From IMG/VR virus record IMGVR_UViG_3300002835_008089, positions 1 to 20,028 of that record: 20,028 nucleotides of DNA. One strand, given 5' to 3'. The notes under the pieces were generated by a model. The model saw only the letters and a list, made by a program, of their open reading frames with translations, had not been told where the DNA came from and searched no databases. The stretch comes from a virus. Of this stretch, positions 7,476-15,236 are shown piece by piece; positions within the stretch are counted from its first letter, which is position 1, and each line of letters begins with the position of its first letter. A program made the translations under genes and the position numbers.

Positions 7476-8285
7476 TTAATTGGTTTCATTTTTAACAGGG
7501 ACTAACCAATGCCTGCACCTATACCCACCTAAATAGTAGAATATGGTTTGAGCATTTGTACCTGGCATCCTCCCCCTCCAATCGGGAAGGTCAGCCCATG
7601 CTTGTATCTGATAGTCGGTATAAGTGTTCCCATTACGCTCAACACAAAACGGCCTTGAATCAGCAATAAGACCGCCCTCGTATCTAAAATTATCATACCC
7701 AAGTGCAGTGTATATCATCATAGCGTAAGAACGAACTACTGATGAAAACATAATATCCGCCTTAGTATTCAGTAGAGATGATACTAAGCCAAGTTTAGAC
7801 TGATTTCCGACTATAAGCTCTTCCAAGGAATCTTCTATCAATGTTTTTGAAGCCCCCGCAACCAATAAAAACGCGAAGGCGTTTAGTATCTCTGAAGAAA
7901 TTTCAACGGAAACATCCCCCAAAGACTCTAAAATAGTTTCTTCAATAGAAGATTGCCCATCGTTTATCTCTTCTATTGTGGCCTTAGATATAGAACGGGT
8001 ATTCAGAGAGCTGTCAATGAACCCCTTCATAAACTCAATCCTCTCCATAAGGAAAGTTGTGGACTCAGATAGACCAGCACTATCTACTAACTCTCTTATC
8101 TTTGAGCGTAGCGTAGCCAACTTAGCGAAGTTCTCCTCCGATTGGTCTATATCCCCATCCGTATAGGAGAATGTCGATAGAAGAACTAATATCGACTCAA
8201 AAAGATTGCTCTCTGTTTGCTCATTCTGAGCCGCTATCTCCTTCGGGAGGGAGTCCAGCTCTTGAATTATTCTTTCGTAGTCCAT
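7476..8285 (-). CDS. MuF-like minor head protein (phage head morphogenesis family)
   Basis: The N-terminal ~200 residues are helical and acidic with little identity to anything I recognise. The C-terminus carries the family signature: ADSRPFC (Cys214), a polar segment, WADLPDWRGRMPGTN (~231-244), then GGYRCRHWLVPV with Cys257 and His259. This D-S-R-x-F-C, W-x-G and C-R-H pattern is typical of the MuF/SPP1 gp7-like proteins bound to the portal in Bacteroidota phages. It probably joins a few copies to the portal and may be ejected or help assembly. The start overlaps the portal 3' end by 65 bases in another frame, which is long; no other Met occurs before about residue 80, so the true start could be a downstream non-ATG codon. 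It is followed by the small acidic gene. Confidence 0.85.
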   Translation of the reverse strand: MDYERIIQELDSLPKEIAAQNEQTESNLFESILVLLSTFSYTDGDIDQSEENFAKLATLRSKIRELVDSAGLSESTTFLMERIEFMKGFIDSSLNTRSISKATIEEINDGQSSIEETILESLGDVSVEISSEILNAFAFLLVAGASKTLIEDSLEELIVGNQSKLGLVSSLLNTKADIMFSSVVRSYAMMIYTALGYDNFRYEGGLIADSRPFCVERNGNTYTDYQIQAWADLPDWRGRMPGTNAQTIFYYLGGYRCRHWLVPVKNETN

Positions 8286-10065
8286 TAGATGTGAATAAGT
8301 TTGGCAAAGTTAAGCCTTTTTCCTTTGGTACAAGTGATTTTGCCACATCTTCTATCTTTTTCTTTTGCTCTAAGTATTCTAAGTTTAAGAACCCCTCATC
8401 CTCATAGACTAAATCACGGATGATAGACTCAACCTTAAAGTGCATAATAGCCTCCCACTTCTCAATAATGCCAGATGCAGATAGCATCATAACCTCCTTA
8501 GCATCCAAATTGAAGTAAGGGTCAACCTTAACGGATAGCTTCATAATGGCACTCTTAACCTCCTCAATAGGAAAGCGAGTGTCCAAATACTGCTGAGCCA
8601 ACATAGCCCTTGAAAACGAAGGTGCGTTCTTGATTTCGGTGGTCAGCTCTGCATCAGTCCTCATCTCAAAGTTCTGAGGGTAGCGCATAGCAGGCTGTTG
8701 CCAAGAGTCGCCATAACGCATCCTGCCAATCATATTGATAGCAAACTGAAAGTCAGAGAACACAACGCCCGAAAAACTCAACAGAAAGCTATACAACTCC
8801 TCCCTATCAATAGCCTTACCCGTAGCCGTTTCCCTGCCCGAAATCTTCTCATTGTTCATTACGTCAATGCTCAAAAGCTCGAAAGCCATCTGAATATTAG
8901 TAATGACCTGTTTGTTTAAGAAGTCAAGGATTTCGTGTTTTACGTCAATGAAGCCAGCAGGCGGTATCTGAATCTTGGTTTCAGTTTCGGTAGTAAACCT
9001 ATTCGGTGCTTGAACCTGATAGACGGATAGAGGACCAAACATCCTGCGTGTGCCCGTGCCTCCACAATTTGAACAAGCAATAGCAACCTTATCCTCAAAG
9101 CCCAATGCCTCTTCTACCTGTCCCGAACCATTACACTTGTCGCACTCATCTACATACTCCCACTTCTGCAAGAAGGCATGAGAGAACTTACTCATCTGCA
9201 AGGTCGAAAAGTCATTTACGGCCTGGTCTAATGCAGGGATAGCAGGGGTGTAAAACGAATGGTAGTAGTAATCACCATCCTCTTGAACCGAAATGCCGCC
9301 AAGTCTTACACAAGGCAAAACACCCATGTTGTGTCGGTAGTACAACTCAATATCGAAGGTGTAATCGCTCTTTTTACCTACCTGAGTGGCTATCAGAATC
9401 TCATTCTTATCGAAGATATAAAACACAAGGCCATCCTCAACCTCTTTCTTCTCCGAGCCTAAGTGAACCTTTGAACTGTGTTCCGCACGGATGATAGCAT
9501 ACTCCTCATCCTTCCACCCCCACACCTTCTTACTCTTGAAGCAATATGCCGTTGGCTTAACCTCAACAGTATCATTGAACGTTCCATCCTCAAAATATTC
9601 CAAGCCTACGGGCATAATGCCCAACACAGCGTTGGGGTCGGTAAGCGTAACGAAGGTTACTATCTGCTGAAAGTAGGTTTCAATACTGCCAAAGCGAGGG
9701 TATTCCTCATTGAAGTAACGCTCCTGCTCAATATTTCCGAAGCGTATTTCATAGTTCTGCCTGTTCCAAACCCTACCAGCAACGTTTACCGCCTTGTGGA
9801 AGTACGGAACAGTAATCGGCCTATAAATCTGCTTACGATAGTTGAACTCGTGCGGAAGCTCATTAGGGGCTTTCTCTTTGAGTAGCTTTTCGGGGAAGGC
9901 ATCATAGTCCGAATGTACCTTTAGGCGAGCAGCCATATCGACACAAGCCCGATATGTTGGGTAAAAGTCAGGCACATAGAACTTGTCCGAGCGTTTCTTA
10001 ACCTCGTAAATAGCATACTCCTTCGAGATATGGGCTAACAGCTCGGTAGCCTTTTCGAGGGTCAT
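8221..10065 (-). CDS. Portal protein with an inserted Cys4 zinc-ribbon-like motif
   Basis: This is the 614-aa dodecameric ring at the DNA-packaging vertex. Characteristic portal parts are the N-terminal wing (ITVPYFHKAVNVAGRVWNRQ, about 84-103), a long beta/alpha middle, and the stem-region signature ISGRETATGKAIDREELYSF (about 409-428), a hallmark of Bacteroidota-phage portals. Between about residues 305 and 337 lies an insert with two C-x-x-C-x-G-x-G knuckles (Cys308, Cys311, Cys331, Cys334; CDKCNGSG and CSNCGGTG). This is a DnaJ-like zinc-binding arrangement. The leader of about 50 bases contains a purine-rich stretch (AGAGGAAGAAGAGGGGG) seven bases before the ATG, the only Shine-Dalgarno-like site I see here. 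The 3' end overlaps the MuF-like gene. No terminase gene is seen upstream; a glycan cassette takes that place. Confidence 0.92.
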   Translation of the reverse strand: MTLEKATELLAHISKEYAIYEVKKRSDKFYVPDFYPTYRACVDMAARLKVHSDYDAFPEKLLKEKAPNELPHEFNYRKQIYRPITVPYFHKAVNVAGRVWNRQNYEIRFGNIEQERYFNEEYPRFGSIETYFQQIVTFVTLTDPNAVLGIMPVGLEYFEDGTFNDTVEVKPTAYCFKSKKVWGWKDEEYAIIRAEHSSKVHLGSEKKEVEDGLVFYIFDKNEILIATQVGKKSDYTFDIELYYRHNMGVLPCVRLGGISVQEDGDYYYHSFYTPAIPALDQAVNDFSTLQMSKFSHAFLQKWEYVDECDKCNGSGQVEEALGFEDKVAIACSNCGGTGTRRMFGPLSVYQVQAPNRFTTETETKIQIPPAGFIDVKHEILDFLNKQVITNIQMAFELLSIDVMNNEKISGRETATGKAIDREELYSFLLSFSGVVFSDFQFAINMIGRMRYGDSWQQPAMRYPQNFEMRTDAELTTEIKNAPSFSRAMLAQQYLDTRFPIEEVKSAIMKLSVKVDPYFNLDAKEVMMLSASGIIEKWEAIMHFKVESIIRDLVYEDEGFLNLEYLEQKKKIEDVAKSLVPKEKGLTLPNLFTSNGLRKNNSRAGLPPEGDSGSE

Positions 10066-10136: not shown

Positions 10137-10751
10137 TTAACTTTCCTTTGGAGTAACAAAACGGCAGTTGTAGAGCAATATGTCGGCATCCCACAATCCT
10201 AATATATTCCAATCATCGCCTAACAAATCGAGTATCCTCCTGCAAACAGGCTTTCCATTTGTATCTATCAGGTTGCCCCAACGAACAAAGATTAAGCTCG
10301 TATTAGAGGTATGGGGCAGGATGTTTTTGAGCAAGGTCAGCTCCGCATTGTACCAGTCAATCCATAATAGGTCGATGTAGGTGAATTGCTTATGCAGGAG
10401 ATAGCTATCAAGACTTCGGGTGGGCACTTCAACCATGTGCCTGTATGTAACGCTCGGAGGCATAGAGCCCTCATAAGTTGTCGTGGTGTTGTAGGCATAA
10501 CGCTCACCCTTTGTAGGCCTCCACATCGTCATCCTCGAATCCTTATCCGTAATAGCACAATAGTTCATCTGAACATTGGTGGGCAGGTTGGGTATGGGGC
10601 TTTCTGCCAGCGGCTCGAAGGCATGAACCTCTGAGCCAGGTATCTCGGCAAGCTTTCTCGTAACCGAGCCATCCCTTGCGTTTATTTCGATTATCAGGCT
10701 TTCCTCAACGGACTCTAAGCACTCTTTAATGTACTCAATGGGCTGTTTCAA
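10137..10751 (-). CDS. FkbM-like protein with altered methyltransferase motifs (204 aa)
   Basis: The layout follows FkbM-family SAM-dependent O-methyltransferases. It has a first strand-loop (LIIEINARDGS, 19-29), an acidic turn (HAFEPL, 43-48), the conserved VPTRSLDSYL (109-118), and a strand-helix LLWIDWYNAEL (128-138). Key positions differ from the family. D-x-G-A-x-x-G has become E-x-N-A-x-x-G, in fact EINARDG. The usual I-K-x-D-V-E-G-x-E is I-D-W-Y-N-A-E, losing Lys, Glu and Gly. It may be a catalytically weak or non-catalytic relative, or have another substrate. It is the last gene of the glycan cassette, starting four bases after the GT10 stop. It is shorter than many FkbM proteins (~220-280 aa). 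The reading frame is intact, so it is not a simple pseudogene. Confidence 0.7.
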   Translation of the reverse strand: MKQPIEYIKECLESVEESLIIEINARDGSVTRKLAEIPGSEVHAFEPLAESPIPNLPTNVQMNYCAITDKDSRMTMWRPTKGERYAYNTTTTYEGSMPPSVTYRHMVEVPTRSLDSYLLHKQFTYIDLLWIDWYNAELTLLKNILPHTSNTSLIFVRWGNLIDTNGKPVCRRILDLLGDDWNILGLWDADILLYNCRFVTPKES

Positions 10752-10755
10752 GTTT

Positions 10756-11637
10756 TTATGGTTTAATGGTTTGTTTTATTTTCTCGTAAATATTGCACTT
10801 AGTAATATATTTTTTCTTCCAAGCTTTTATCGGCTGAATAAAGTCATCATAGTTAGTGGACTGCAAGATATGCTCTATCTCCTTTACGGCATACTTAGAG
10901 TTCCTGAAATTCTCTAATGGAATAGCAAAAGGTATGTGATTAGCAATATTTTTAGACCCTACATAAATGGGGATACAAGAGCATAAGGCCGCATCAATAG
11001 CCTTCTCGGATATATAATCATCCCAAATGCCACTCTCAATGCACACCGAAAATTGAAACGGCAAAAGCCCCGTAGCCTTGTTGGATAACTCCCCCTTAAC
11101 GCCCTTGAAGTTTAAGCCCCTGCCATAGACCGAACACCACCCTGTTTGGGCAAGCTCACGAGCCAAGCGTATGCGGTATTCGTAAAAGCCTCCCGATATG
11201 TTGGAAGTTATCATGCTTATCCGTGCTGTCTTTTTTGGGGCGGGCATAAACTCCTCGAGTTCCCCCTCGAGGTGATAAAACATCCCCATCGGGAAGCCCA
11301 CAAGATTGCCCTCTATGCCGTATGCATAAGGCTCTGCACAAGTGTAAACAACCGAACAATATGAGCCGATATTCCTGTCAAAGAAGTTGTGGTCAGGAGG
11401 CTCTTGAATAAAGCCAATCACCCTTTCTTTGGGCACTTTAATATCGAAGTCCCCCTTTGAATTAAAAACCACAAGCCATTCGTAAGAGTCGTCAACAACG
11501 AACTCTACATTGTCCTTGAAGTGTTTTGCCGTCATAAATTGGTCAATAATCCTGTCGTGGATAGAGAAACTATCCGAATAGTTGGATACTGCCCTTATTT
11601 TTATTGAGTGGGTCAATGGATTTACTTTGGCAGACAA
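10756..11637 (-). CDS. GT10-family glycosyltransferase, alpha-fucosyltransferase-like (293 aa)
   Basis: Predicted to transfer a sugar, probably fucose from GDP-fucose, to a glycan acceptor. The C-terminal donor-binding signature of GT10 is visible from about 196 to 224: FSVCIES (Glu201), WDDYISEKAIDAAL (Asp207-Tyr208, Glu211-Lys212), then CIPIYVGSKNI. This matches the family pattern F-x-x-x-x-E-N-S, D-Y-x-T/S-E-K, A-x-x-x-x-x-x-P-x-Y-x-G. The N-terminal half holds an acceptor-side Rossmann-like region (ERVIGFIQEPPDHNFF, about 72-87). No signal peptide or membrane segment is seen, so it should be cytosolic. The ATG overlaps the stop of the upstream FkbM gene by 16 bases. The codons for Leu-Glu-Gly-Glu-Leu-Glu at 11253-11272 form a short inverted repeat. 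Fucose specificity is inferred; other GT10 members use related donors. Confidence 0.83.
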   Translation of the reverse strand: MSAKVNPLTHSIKIRAVSNYSDSFSIHDRIIDQFMTAKHFKDNVEFVVDDSYEWLVVFNSKGDFDIKVPKERVIGFIQEPPDHNFFDRNIGSYCSVVYTCAEPYAYGIEGNLVGFPMGMFYHLEGELEEFMPAPKKTARISMITSNISGGFYEYRIRLARELAQTGWCSVYGRGLNFKGVKGELSNKATGLLPFQFSVCIESGIWDDYISEKAIDAALCSCIPIYVGSKNIANHIPFAIPLENFRNSKYAVKEIEHILQSTNYDDFIQPIKAWKKKYITKCNIYEKIKQTIKP

Positions 11638-12293
11638 AGAATGTCGAGTTGTTTGCCCGATAAACCTTGCCCTTTGTAAACATTTCTATAATAATATTGA
11701 TTGTTTTTAAGCCAACCGAAAACATCTTCATCCGTAACCCCCTGCCTTATAAGTGCCCCGCGGTTAATTTCTAAAAGCATAGTTGGCCTGAACATTGAAA
11801 TTGTTTTTTGCGCGCCAATCAATGCCCTTAACTCCATCCCCTCGCAATCCATTTTAATAAAATGGCACTCATTAAGTTTTAATGAGTCCAAGTCTATGCA
11901 CTTAATCTCATCACCCTCAATAGCATGACTTGCGCCTACGTTAGGGTCTAAAGCAATGCCTATTGTATGGCTGCTATCACTTGCCCCGTAGTTTAGGCAA
12001 AAAACCTGAGCGTGCTTAGTCATATTGTATTTTAAACACTCAAATGCAGGTGGGTTTGGCTCAAATGCATAAACTTTACCTGAGCTACCCACACGGTTAG
12101 CATAATATTCCGTGTGGTCGCCAATGTAAGCCCCAATATCAACAACGGTAAACCCACTTTGAATATGCCCATTTAATAACGGGAGCATATTTTGGTCGTG
12201 GTCTAACCTGCCCGACTGCTTCACCCATTTGCTTATGTGGGTGTCATTTTCAATGACAGCAACAGAGCCCATTTTTAGTCTTAATATTTTCAT
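11622..12293 (-). CDS. FkbM-family SAM-dependent methyltransferase (223 aa)
   Basis: A methyltransferase probably acting on a sugar hydroxyl. The SAM-binding motif I is intact: VVDIGAYIGDHT (Asp52, Gly54, Gly58). It is followed by the acidic loop VYAFEPNPPAFECL (Glu78-Pro79) and the FkbM hallmark FIKMDCEGMELRAL (Lys147, Asp149, Glu151, Gly152, Glu154). RPTMLLEINR (~170-179) gives the usual late strand. The length is normal for the family. The start overlaps the stop of the preceding glycosyltransferase by four bases, and the stop lies inside the GT10 gene. In context it probably O-methylates a sugar added by the adjacent transferases, which would cap or diversify the glycan. Contrast the second FkbM-like gene of the cassette, whose corresponding residues are changed. 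Confidence 0.87.
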   Translation of the reverse strand: MKILRLKMGSVAVIENDTHISKWVKQSGRLDHDQNMLPLLNGHIQSGFTVVDIGAYIGDHTEYYANRVGSSGKVYAFEPNPPAFECLKYNMTKHAQVFCLNYGASDSSHTIGIALDPNVGASHAIEGDEIKCIDLDSLKLNECHFIKMDCEGMELRALIGAQKTISMFRPTMLLEINRGALIRQGVTDEDVFGWLKNNQYYYRNVYKGQGLSGKQLDILCLPK

Positions 12294-12982
12294 CCTATGT
12301 ATTGTTTTATTTGCTCTAAGTCCTTTGAGTCAAGGCCAGACCAACTCCAAAATTGATGAACCTTATTTTTAGGCAACTCAACAGTGTCCGTATCGATAAA
12401 CTTATATCTATCGCACTCAAATTTCTCAGCGTAAGCACCTATTGCATTAAATTCGCTAAAAGACCTATATGGCTGTGAGTTTAAGTATCGTTTAAGTGTG
12501 ATGCCGTGCTTATCCTCAATCCATTTAGATGAGGCCGCAATAGTATCGGTAAAATAAACGAGAGGCATCCTTCTCATATACTCCCACTCAACGCTAAATC
12601 CAACGGCCTTTTCTGTAATTGGCTTCCACGGAGTTTCAATAGAATTGTATGATGTTTTATAGACTATCGGCCTCCCATTGAAAAACCACTCGGATACATC
12701 GACAGGCTCACAAGCAATAACATCGCTATCCCAAAAAACAATAGCATCAGCATCGGTGTATAGGTTGGCAGTCATTTTGGTGAGCTGCTGCCCTAAATAC
12801 CCATCTTTCAAATCCTTAACCTGAATCACTTTTTCAACAGAACACCCAGATAAAAGACTCGCATTTGGGATTGTTATAACTATGTTTCTGTACCCAGTTA
12901 CATGAAGATGAATTGATTTTAAGGCATATTTCAGCCATTCTAAATCTTTTTCATAAGTTCTTATGAAAATATCTACGTTCAT
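12290..12982 (-). CDS. GT-A-like glycosyltransferase, DUF6492-like (230 aa)
   Basis: The protein begins with a nucleotide-sugar-type first strand (MNVDIFIRTYEKDLEWLKYA) and contains an acceptor/donor segment GYLGQQLTKMTANLYTDADA (61-80). The metal-binding Asp-x-Asp-type motif FWDSDVIA (Asp85-Ser-Asp87) follows. Later segments AVGFSVEWEYMRRMPLVYF and SFSEFNAIGAYAEKF fit the middle and C-terminal parts of DUF6492-type transferases, whose hallmark is the Q-Q-x-x-K, D-S-D and E-F/Y arrangement. There is no membrane segment, so it is a cytosolic enzyme. ATGA overlaps join it to both the upstream and downstream genes. Donor and acceptor cannot be told from sequence. Confidence 0.8.
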   Translation of the reverse strand: MNVDIFIRTYEKDLEWLKYALKSIHLHVTGYRNIVITIPNASLLSGCSVEKVIQVKDLKDGYLGQQLTKMTANLYTDADAIVFWDSDVIACEPVDVSEWFFNGRPIVYKTSYNSIETPWKPITEKAVGFSVEWEYMRRMPLVYFTDTIAASSKWIEDKHGITLKRYLNSQPYRSFSEFNAIGAYAEKFECDRYKFIDTDTVELPKNKVHQFWSWSGLDSKDLEQIKQYIG

Positions 12983-13707
12983 TTTAGATTTTGTCTTATT
13001 GTGTTATAAACTTGTCTTGTTAATTGCTGAGGAGCTGTCGGTCTATAATGCCTTGAAGTAGATATGCTGCTGTTAAATTGCTCCATCCATCTAAAATATT
13101 CAGTCATTCTTACCCAATCATAGTTGTCATATTGAGTGTCGTGTACTTGGTGGAAAAACAACGGCTCACGAACCTCTATTACAGAAACCTGATGCTTTAT
13201 AAATCTATACGGAATCCAATAATCCCACCAAGTCTGCCCCATACAAAACATAGACTGCGGAATCAAATGGTAATTCATGGAGTTTATAATGAACACATCA
13301 AACCCCAGTAAATATCTATTCCAATTAGTGAACGTTCCATCGTGTTCCTCTCTATTTGAAATTACAAGACCATTAACAGCCCAATCCCAATATTTATCAA
13401 AATCATTGGATTCATCTCGAAGAACTATATCCGAGTTAATGAGCATGACCTGTTCTAAGCTATGTTCTTTTGCATAGTCTATGAAGGCAGAAATAGGAAC
13501 GTAGGGAGCTTTAAATACGCCCTCCATAGTTCGATAGCAGGGAATAAATTCAACGTCAGGAAAGGCTTCTTTTAGAGTTAAAATCTCACTCGGGCAGTTG
13601 AACGATATAACCTTAAACCCTGCGTCAGCCCAAGACTTAGTGGCCATCGGCTGAACGTGTCCCATAATGTGCTTAGGGCTTATAGATGTTAGTGCATACT
13701 TATTCAT
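12979..13707 (-). CDS. Putative GT-A-like glycosyltransferase (242 aa)
   Basis: The segment LEQVMLINSDIVL (Asn91-Ser-Asp93) looks like the metal-binding D/N-x-D loop of GT-A transferases. It is followed by RYLLGFDVFIINSM (about 123-136), an aromatic GQTWWDYWIPYRFIK, and FFHQVHDTQYDN. The W-D-x-W and H-Q-x-H-D combination occurs in a group of GT-A-like proteins associated with surface-glycan loci. The first residue of the usual D-x-D is Asn here, so the metal site may be atypical. The ends overlap both neighbours by four bases (ATGA), so it is firmly within the operon. Family assignment is by motif pattern only; no substrate can be assigned. Confidence 0.7.
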   Translation of the reverse strand: MNKYALTSISPKHIMGHVQPMATKSWADAGFKVISFNCPSEILTLKEAFPDVEFIPCYRTMEGVFKAPYVPISAFIDYAKEHSLEQVMLINSDIVLRDESNDFDKYWDWAVNGLVISNREEHDGTFTNWNRYLLGFDVFIINSMNYHLIPQSMFCMGQTWWDYWIPYRFIKHQVSVIEVREPLFFHQVHDTQYDNYDWVRMTEYFRWMEQFNSSISTSRHYRPTAPQQLTRQVYNTIRQNLK

Positions 13708-14585
13708 TGAGCGTTTTTTGGCGGCCTGCCCTCTTGTAACTTAGCGTTAGATGCGTGTTTGGCGGAATGTATCTTATGCCACTTATACTCGTGGTTCAGC
13801 CCCATATCCTTGTGATATTCATAGAGAAGCTGGTCGCAGTTTTCCCATATTGACCTACTCAGATACCCTGCCCCGCCAAAGAGAGAAATAAAATGGCAGT
13901 CTGCCGCTTCACTCATCATATCACTAATATTCTTATGGTGTTGGCCAAAGAATTTTACAGGGTCAAAGCCTCCATCTGGATTTACGTTAAGCTGAACGCA
14001 GGCTACATTAAGAGCAAGTTCATCGGGATATGTTCTGCCCCACTTCATAGATAGCTTATTGAGGGGGACTCCGTTCAGAGCATTTTCCCTTGCCTGAGCA
14101 TAAAAATGGCTTAACTGCTTCCCCTTCTTCAATATAAGGAAAGATGAGTTTATCGTTGGGATTTCTGCGTTTTTAGGCATCTCGTGGTAATGCCAAATGG
14201 TTTCTTTTGTAGCCCACCAATGGTTAGAAATGAGCGCATAGAAATACCCTGGTGAATTTTGAGCTTTTAGTATGATGTCATCAAATGGCTTAATGCAAAT
14301 CCCATCTACATCGAGGTATATGTTCACATTGTGTACTAAATACCTGTCTATGTTTAGCTTAGCCATTCCTGGGCTAAACGAGCCATTTTGATATAAATCC
14401 CTTTCATCAATCGGTGTTCTTATACTGAAAACCCAAGACTTGTAATCGGGGAGGCTGTACTTATCATCGTGAATGAGATGAATCGGAATGTCGTTGTTAA
14501 ACCTTCGGATAGATAAGGCCATATTATAGGCCATCTGATAGTATTCCTTCTTACCGAAGGCCATAAGAACGATTGCTGTACTCAT
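13704..14585 (-). CDS. GT-A-like glycosyltransferase, first gene of the glycan cassette (293 aa)
   Basis: A nucleotide-sugar transferase with the opening strand STAIVLMAFGKKEYYQMAYN and helix, the IHLIHDD strand, then FSPGMAKLNIDRYLV and the metal-binding NIYLDVDGICIKPFDD (Asp92-Val-Asp94). Later WATKETIWHYHEMPKNAEIP and RTYPDELALNVAC correspond to the acceptor side of GT8/GT-A-like folds. I choose the ATG at 14585. An upstream in-frame ATG at 14639 would add 18 residues read through the terminator hairpin and -7 box, which makes it unlikely. The basic, Ala/Asn/Lys-rich C-terminus (HSAKHASNAKLQEGRPPKNA) may be disordered. The stop overlaps the next start (ATGA). It probably acts early in glycan assembly, but gene order is not proof. 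Confidence 0.8.
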   Translation of the reverse strand: MSTAIVLMAFGKKEYYQMAYNMALSIRRFNNDIPIHLIHDDKYSLPDYKSWVFSIRTPIDERDLYQNGSFSPGMAKLNIDRYLVHNVNIYLDVDGICIKPFDDIILKAQNSPGYFYALISNHWWATKETIWHYHEMPKNAEIPTINSSFLILKKGKQLSHFYAQARENALNGVPLNKLSMKWGRTYPDELALNVACVQLNVNPDGGFDPVKFFGQHHKNISDMMSEAADCHFISLFGGAGYLSRSIWENCDQLLYEYHKDMGLNHEYKWHKIHSAKHASNAKLQEGRPPKNAQ

Positions 14586-14628: not shown

Positions 14629-14648
14629 AATGTTACCAAACTCTAAGA

Positions 14649-15236
14649 TTAAAGAGTGGAGAAGAAAGTTGGAGGCGCAGGGTACTTCTGAATACAATCT
14701 CCTACGGGGATGTAGGCAGAAGCCGTTACCTCAAACATCTGCAACGCACGGTCATTATCTGGAACCATCAAAGCCGCACGGTAGTTCGTGGGATTTGTAA
14801 TCACCATCACTTCATCGCTTCCGCACAAGTACAGAATCAAGTAAGTGGTCTGAGTATTCAGGTCGCAGTAGAACTTAGTGTTTCCGTCAGAAGAGCCTGA
14901 ACCTACTGATTGATAGCCCGTAGCATTAGCATCCTGCCAAGTACAAGTCCAGTTAAAGCCTACGAGAATGTTCTCAGGGCCACAAGCAATCGGATTGGGC
15001 ACTTCAACGGCAGCAGGAGATGCAACAGTCCCCTTAATACCAGCAATACGGAATAGCTGGTCGGCAGCAACGGTATCTTCGTACCAATCATCGGTACTCC
15101 AATCCGCAGCAGTAGCGGGAAGTTCAGCGTCGCAAAAGACGATAGCAGCAGCGGAAATACCGCCAAGTTTATAAGCTCCGCAATCCACAATTTCGTGTGG
15201 GGGTAGCTCGGAGCATCCTATTGAGCAAAAAGCCAT
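14649..15236 (-). CDS. Probable abundant virion protein, major tail protein candidate (195 aa)
   Basis: No clear family. The protein opens MAFCSIGCSELPP and has nine cysteines, Ala/Thr/Ser-rich beta-type sequence (GGISAAAIVFCDAELPATAA), a Trp-rich part (VGFNWTCTWQDANATGYQS) and a C-terminal NDRALQMFEVTASAYIPVGD. The size (about 20 kDa) and beta-rich composition fit a major tail tube protein. It is the only gene here with both a -7 box upstream and a terminator downstream, which suggests independent, strong expression, as for a protein needed in many copies. Against a simple tail-tube call, it lies after the tape-measure and baseplate-like genes rather than before them. A capsid decoration protein is the main alternative. 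The start is preceded by A-rich AATTATAAAAAA. Confidence 0.82.
   Translation of the reverse strand: MAFCSIGCSELPPHEIVDCGAYKLGGISAAAIVFCDAELPATAADWSTDDWYEDTVAADQLFRIAGIKGTVASPAAVEVPNPIACGPENILVGFNWTCTWQDANATGYQSVGSGSSDGNTKFYCDLNTQTTYLILYLCGSDEVMVITNPTNYRAALMVPDNDRALQMFEVTASAYIPVGDCIQKYPAPPTFFSTL

Follow-up and report, generated by a model that had tools for sequence, protein, structure and literature searches.

A glycan-modification cassette among virion genes

The window analysed here is the complete 20,028-base IMG/VR record IMGVR_UViG_3300002835_008089, from a bacterial virus known from environmental DNA alone. All main genes of the window lie on the minus strand, in the order tape measure end, T647, T472, D195, a six-gene cassette, portal, minor head protein, scaffold, major capsid protein (MCP) and more structural genes. 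This study concerns the cassette (10137–14585), its first gene, encoding the putative transferase GT311, and the gene for the 195-residue protein D195 that precedes it. Sequence comparison with relatives suggests that D195 and GT311 form a two-gene core on which the cassette hangs. Informative PHROG matches in the window were obtained for the portal, one tail protein and the tape measure (weak, E 0.0024), while the remaining structural genes were named by position and customary gene order. The same genes are found at 99–100% identity in G007, a 33.6-kb record that reaches the full tape measure and also holds a gene with a large-terminase-like start, as judged by eye.

From high to low coordinate, the cassette families are GT311 (14585–13704, or from a TTG at 14639), a GT8/glycogenin-like GT-A transferase proposed as the initiating enzyme; GT242 (13707–12979), a putative transferase; GT230 (12982–12290), a DUF6492-like putative transferase; FkbM223 (12293–11622), an intact FkbM-type methyltransferase; a GT10-like, or fucosyltransferase-like, transferase (11637–10756); and FkbM204 (10751–10137), an FkbM-like protein with an altered motif I. 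All six open reading frames (ORFs) are on the minus strand, and the last two are listed with TTG starts. The likely start of GT311 is the ATG at 14585; conservation among relatives begins there and not at the upstream TTG. The downstream border is the portal gene (8221–10065, minus strand; phrog_7376, E 3.5e-10), which also served as a bait for relatives. An initial annotation of this DNA had described a tight six-gene operon with overlaps of 4, 4, 4 and 16 bases and a 4-base gap before the sixth gene, flanked by a terminator and -7 boxes. The re-derived coordinates agree with it, and the signals are present on the minus strand: an intrinsic terminator after D195 (14628–14605), consisting of a hairpin and then a T run, a TAnnTTTG (-7-type) box before the cassette (14598–14591), and another before the portal gene (10127–10120).

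Relatives were collected with capsid (48 loci) and portal baits (77 loci, many of them shorter fragments). Layouts were compared in 50 loci, about one per contig, mainly chosen as holding the portal and an upstream tail gene. Two of these are incomplete (L087, L101), four are distant (L054, L057, L058, L059) and 44 are near-type, namely the window and 43 relatives, with 21 distinct sequences of the spacer between D195 and GT311. Both a hairpin with T run and a TAnnTTTG box occur in this spacer in all 44 near loci, the window included. A box also lies within 120 bases before D195 in 42 of the 44 and before the portal in 37. We take the TAnnTTTG box to be a Bacteroidota-type promoter. Across the window, 15 boxes were found against 17.5 expected, which is not above chance, and it is therefore the recurring position alone that marks them out.

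Pairing of D195 and GT311 across relatives

To avoid ascertainment through GT311, D195 was used as a bait without reference to GT311. This gave 141 loci, four of which end too soon downstream; the deep set is the best 80 of 136 matches (80–100% identity) and is mostly one clade. A GT311-family gene lies downstream of D195 in all 137 loci with room (79/79 deep, 58/58 near), starting within 200 bases of the D195 stop in 136 and at 333 bases in the other. With longest-ORF starts, the two genes overlap by one base in 54 of the 79 deep loci. With GT311 as the main bait, 94 loci were obtained: 85 with room, six with less than 160 bases upstream, and three in which GT311 runs off the contig end and D195 is present. 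D195 was found upstream in 85/85, within 200 bases in 74 and further away in 11 (L164, L173, L191, L192, L197–L199, L202–L205), where 322–1667 bases and in some cases small ORFs intervene. Clustering at 50% identity divides the D195 family into 11 clusters, all of them followed by GT311, nine within 200 bases and two at 322–1667 bases. Five D195 members without GT311 are all near a contig end (0–706 bases of room), and part of GT311 is seen in three of them. Loci from different samples may be the same phage, the 227 D195 ORFs comprising 140 distinct sequences.

The pair also occurs apart from the rest of the cassette. In two distant records first reached via GT242, G008 and G010, relatives of D195 and GT311 (the latter at 24–27% identity) are immediate neighbours in that order. 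A gene resembling a terminase by eye is close by, and the glycan genes preceding the portal are more than 11 kb away. Homology of both families rests on alignments and iterated profile searches; profiles of this sort may drift, but here the motifs in the alignments are consistent.

Divergence of the proteins was compared in 35 loci holding all five, reduced to 28 by dereplication, with 2000 permutations (smallest possible p 0.0005). Distances of D195 and GT311 are correlated at r 0.935, and at 0.739 when conditioned on the portal (p 0.0005). Partial correlations given the portal are 0.680 for GT311 and GT10 (p 0.0005) and 0.365 for D195 and GT10 (p 0.0005). Those with T472 are 0.212 for D195 (p 0.0055), 0.086 for GT311 (p 0.15) and 0.031 for GT10 (p 0.28).

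A search of genome_contigs with GT311 found one relative, on an 8.9-kb contig binned to a Bacteroidota metagenome-assembled genome; a portal alignment found no relative there. This contig (L123, JAKQEI010000141.1) is itself phage, with phage structural genes and the D195–GT311 pair, and is either a provirus or a mis-binned phage. Together with the TAnnTTTG boxes it points to Bacteroidota as the probable host. The phage collection was queried with window DNA, MCP, GT242, portal, GT10 and GT311 relatives. Window DNA, MCP and GT242 had no match in it, and the GT311 relatives either matched a single uncultured phage of 484 kb (E 9e-4 to 5e-3) or had no match.

Predicted folds, minimal forms and exchangeable genes

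The model of GT311, built from 24 aligned sequences, has a mean predicted local distance difference test score (pLDDT) of 87.4. Foldseek matches it to glycogenin at E 2e-8, and the 50 rows shown by VIA include LARGE1, GlyE, glycogenin and UGGT (Z 16.1–17.5, root mean square deviation 3.3–4.1, 205–246 residues aligned). Identity to the structural matches is 9–17% in the structural alignments. Sequence profiles recover little of this likeness. GT311 has no family match in Pfam, the GT8 profile PF01501 reaches E 0.24 in one of nine family members and does not recognise the family, and the GT311 profile matches PDB sequences weakly (best Skp1 galactosyltransferase, E 0.014; glycogenin, 0.29). PHROGs and Pfam together give neither D195 nor GT311 a convincing name. 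The motifs D92xD94 and P187-D188-E189 are invariant in 36/36 near-cassette sequences, and in 76/76 deep and 56/56 near transferases of at least 230 residues aligned from the D195-bait sets. A separate DxD count of 93/93 is partly circular, as some loci were found via the DxD pattern itself; PDE was not in that pattern. GT311 is thus, on its predicted fold, a GT8-like protein with a GT-A fold and a DxD metal motif, and the GT-A reading given to this gene in the initial annotation is borne out.

D195 (14649–15236, minus strand), with its own promoter box and terminator, is a conserved family and a putative major tail tube protein, proposed here as the glycan acceptor. The AlphaFold model is weak, with a mean pLDDT of 63.6 and residues 1–25, 73–93 and 108–116 below 50. 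In the PDB, the T1 tail tube ranks first by Foldseek (E 0.083, probability 0.80). Nearly all of the 50 rows shown by VIA are phage tail tube, terminator, baseplate, injection-system tube or Hcp proteins (Z 6.5–8.5). Among the rows shown from a viral library, 11 have a functional name, nine of them major tail or tail tube proteins, and 39 are uncharacterised or unnamed. These matches are suggestive of a tail tube fold, and D195 is on this weak likeness a possible tail tube subunit. Its own promoter box and terminator would fit a protein made in many copies.

Two loci (L099:4411-5544 and L104:4376-5479) encode a long D195 paralogue before D195, 58–64% identical to it over ~190 residues. This long form is D195 with an extra C-terminal domain of ~180 residues; some tail tubes have an extended long form. 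A Gly/Ser-rich insert at residues ~107–118 of the window's D195 (window ~14883–14918) is shared with L051, L060, L061, L067 and L070. This loop was considered as the acceptor and set aside because relatives carrying GT311 mostly do without it (23 of 29 aligned rows).

The smallest arrangements contain little besides the pair. The transferase is the sole gene separating D195 from the portal in L201 and L123. In the deep clade one further gene follows GT311, encoding an O-methyltransferase (PF13578, E 6e-17; PF01596, 2e-16). Of the 80 deep loci, one is without GT311 and four are without room; the O-methyltransferase is found in 73 of the other 75, with no match in two, versus one match in the near set of 61 loci. 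In L193, hexapeptide, GT2 and FkbM genes lie in front of D195 and not behind GT311. On the strength of the minimal forms, one sugar, optionally methylated, may represent the ground state, with the window as an elaborated version and the order of events presumed.

Within the near cassettes, D195 is immediately followed by GT311 in 44/44, and a GT10 family member is present in 41/44. The genes exchanged among these cassettes encode GT2 enzymes, several kinds of FkbM, other methyltransferases and a Nucleotid_trans-family protein. The three cassettes missing GT10 (L081, L082, L093) have a DegT aminotransferase-like gene and hexapeptide-type acetyltransferase-like genes; the DegT-like ORF is short (208 residues, best stretch residues 5–79) and so of doubtful activity. 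In L202 (7786-8496) an RNA-ligase family protein (PF09414, E 3e-18) is encoded among transferase genes behind GT311.

The remaining window genes can be placed with varying confidence. GT242 has no Pfam or PHROG match, and its relatives occur in distant-phage cassettes at 51–56% identity. GT230 falls just below the cut-off for DUF6492 (E 9e-5, 22.2 of 22.9 bits), with relatives of 61–65% identity in distant phages. In these phages, whose portals are 27–28% identical to that of the window, relatives of GT242, GT230 and FkbM223 lie before the portal. The GT10-like match covers the C-terminal domain (PF00852, E 8e-9, 35.9 bits against a cut-off of 23.9), and FkbM223 matches PF05050 (8e-20) and TIGR01444 (3e-24), with S-adenosylmethionine motifs intact in 5/5 rows. 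The initial annotation had called both of these as they now appear. It had labelled FkbM204 degenerate, which now seems less likely: the altered motif I (EINARDG) is common to nine of 16 aligned rows, and the protein, above the cut-off for PF05050 (3e-11) and at 35.7 of 37.7 bits for TIGR01444, looks from its sequence like a maintained variant rather than decay. Its statement that sugar-nucleotide synthesis genes are absent is correct for the window and wrong for some relatives, which carry genes for GDP-fucose synthesis. L054 encodes a GDP-L-fucose synthase (NF047922, E 3.7e-127), and G010 and G008 encode GDP-mannose dehydratases (TIGR01472, E 1.3e-97 and 3.6e-115), all below the strict NCBI cut-offs; that of G010 lies directly after GT311.

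Two side observations concern the portal region. The minor-head-protein ORF (7476–8285) shares 65 bases with the end of the portal ORF, both in the window and in the near-identical G007. Portal residues ~305–345 contain two CxxCxGxG-type stretches, which we take to resemble a DnaJ zinc finger, and weak PHROG antitermination-Q-like matches fall there. An alignment of 16 portals, with identities as low as 27%, keeps C308, C331 and C334 without exception.

Proposed tail glycosylation, its alternatives and known systems

We consider it probable that the cassette is a tail-glycosylation module in which GT311 puts the first sugar on the D195 tail tube subunit and the other enzymes extend and methylate the chain. 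D195 would be made from its own promoter and glycosylated by GT311 in the cytosol of the host, either ahead of tail assembly or in the course of it. GT242, GT230 and the GT10 enzyme, the last probably with fucose, would then extend the chain, and the FkbM enzymes would O-methylate the glycan. Sugar donors would come from the host, with some relatives bringing GDP-fucose synthesis genes. The benefit may be a masked or altered tail surface. Virion glycosylation is the better supported of the hypotheses put forward in the initial annotation, in so far as the genes keep to virion-gene neighbourhoods in the loci examined and the first enzyme goes with one virion-type gene; the glycan is what we infer. 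A location far from virion genes, in host-type loci, had been named there as counting against it; the relatives examined keep the genes among virion genes. A survey of related phages for co-occurrence had also been proposed, and the 195-residue protein and the first transferase occur together in the examined loci with room. Overlooked at that stage were this core of D195 and the first transferase, the possible tail tube identity, and the donor-synthesis genes of relatives.

Several points weigh against this reading. A GT8-like fold, itself predicted, is no proof of a protein acceptor, LgtC, WbbM and GlyE being among the matches as well. For D195, Foldseek ranks 2–8 in the PDB are unrelated (dirigent, Mediator, PRELID and others), with further tail tubes lower down and no match passing E 0.001, and a VIA Z of ~8 is by the tool's own warning often reached by unrelated models. 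No individual Ser, Thr or Tyr of D195 was singled out as acceptor, and the glycan itself is a prediction from gene content. The terminator between D195 and GT311 suggests separate transcription units in the near clade. GDP-fucose donor genes occur in cassettes of distant relatives without GT10. Of the 11 D195 clusters, three were reached by the D195 baits and eight through GT311 or GT242 baits. Linked genes share ancestry, so that the D195–GT311 correlation may partly reflect linkage, and the T472 control is more divergent (mean distance 0.58).

The target could instead be another virion protein, such as the major capsid, a head protein or a tail fibre, with D195 a mere neighbour for co-expression. 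Capsid glycosylation reported for mycobacteriophages (in the available text of PMC12619734 and PMC11256854) and the adjoining large tail proteins such as T472 speak for this, but D195 and GT311 stay paired in two records with the T472, portal and capsid genes several kilobases off, and the D195–T472 correlation beyond the portal is small (0.21). We regard such a target as unlikely, if the foremost of the alternatives. The enzymes might also alter a host surface glycan, for receptor change or superinfection exclusion. Surface glycans are among the targets of FkbM and GT10 enzymes. Phage transferases that change the serotype of the host are known (PMC12619734, in part). A host-surface target is improbable here given the fixed place among virion genes, the tie of GT311 to a virion-type gene, and the lack of a membrane-type hydrophobic stretch in any of the six proteins. 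The highest 19-residue mean is 1.16; the usual threshold for a membrane stretch is ~1.6.

Glycosylation of modified phage DNA bases is the most remote of these alternatives. Phage glycosyltransferases acting in DNA hypermodification are known (cited in PMC12619734, as far as its available text goes), but the genes lie among virion genes, GT311 is paired with D195, and the thymidylate synthase/hydroxymethylase family is found in none of 15 records of relatives, which are possibly fragments. In 15 records whose coordinates were compared, matches to FkbM (12), GT2 (15) and epimerase (5) all fall inside the cassette or immediately after GT311. The positions of these matches, the lack of hydroxymethylase matches in the 15 records and the absent membrane stretches weaken both the DNA and the host-surface targets. 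The close pairing with a tail-type gene would also suit a GT311 that has kept the fold, lost catalysis and become a tail-assembly factor. This is very improbable in view of the invariant DxD and PDE motifs in the D195-bait sets (76/76, 56/56), the transferases and methyltransferases around it, and the O-methyltransferase directly behind it in the deep clade.

These loci may, at about even chances, represent a widespread uncultured phage group in which a dedicated tail-tube transferase always comes with the gene of its substrate. On the constant first sugar, exchangeable transferase, methyltransferase and donor-synthesis genes would build lineage-specific glycans, so that the tail would display along its length a phage analogue of the glycoform variation seen in O-antigens or flagellins. 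A consistent substrate–enzyme gene pair across lineages predicts both a modified virion protein and its enzyme, and the question can be tested with two genes. If true, GT311 would belong to a new family of protein-glycosylating enzymes, and sugars that vary along the tail would matter for how phages bind their hosts and how other molecules recognise them.

Phage-particle glycosylation is, to our knowledge, documented in few phages. Glycogenin, Skp1 galactosyltransferase and LARGE1, all GT8 enzymes, share the GT-A fold and DxD motif with GT311, at 9–17% identity in the structural alignments; the first two act on sugars linked to protein. Serotype-conversion (Gtr) clusters include a membrane flippase and a membrane-bound transferase, unlike the six cassette proteins with no membrane-type stretch. 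The GT10-like proteins nearest to that of the window in the phage collection (13 records, nine of them Synechococcus phages) are 32–35% identical over a third of the protein, and the Synechococcus carriers differ in being mostly large cyanophages. By portal, the nearest isolates are the Polaribacter phages P12002L and P12002S (20.6% identity over 48%); P12002L has no annotated transferase cassette, though many of its genes are hypothetical.

Among matches listed in the open-licence literature, none described a tail-tube gene paired with a transferase gene in phages of this kind. The cryo-EM papers PMC13033339 and PMC12494034 deal, in the portions available, with glycan binding and not with virion-protein glycosylation, and a review covers capsid glycosylation and antibodies (PMC12691614, in part). 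FlmG-dependent O-glycosylation of flagellin (PMC7591256, in part) is cytosolic and directed at a self-assembling filament protein, as the proposed tail-tube modification would be, but concerns bacterial flagellins. The closest parallel lies in the mycobacteriophages, for which the available text of PMC12619734 describes glycans on the C-termini of capsid and tail tube proteins and that of PMC11256854 capsid glycosylation in Che8 and Rita, both citing Freeman et al. 2023. In Che8, Rita and others, phage-encoded transferases are considered to modify virion proteins, with glycans reported on capsid and tail tube subunits. The window likewise has phage-encoded glycosyltransferases linked to virion genes. 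The transferases of Maravista, a Che8 relative, lie near the 3' end of the genome (PMC11256854, in part), whereas here a GT8-like enzyme is fixed behind a putative tail tube gene. The window type also differs in its exchangeable fucosyltransferase-like and methyltransferase genes and its Bacteroidota-type boxes. The cassette is most likely a tail-tube glycosylation module and, as such, a variant of phage virion glycosylation, itself already known in mycobacteriophages.

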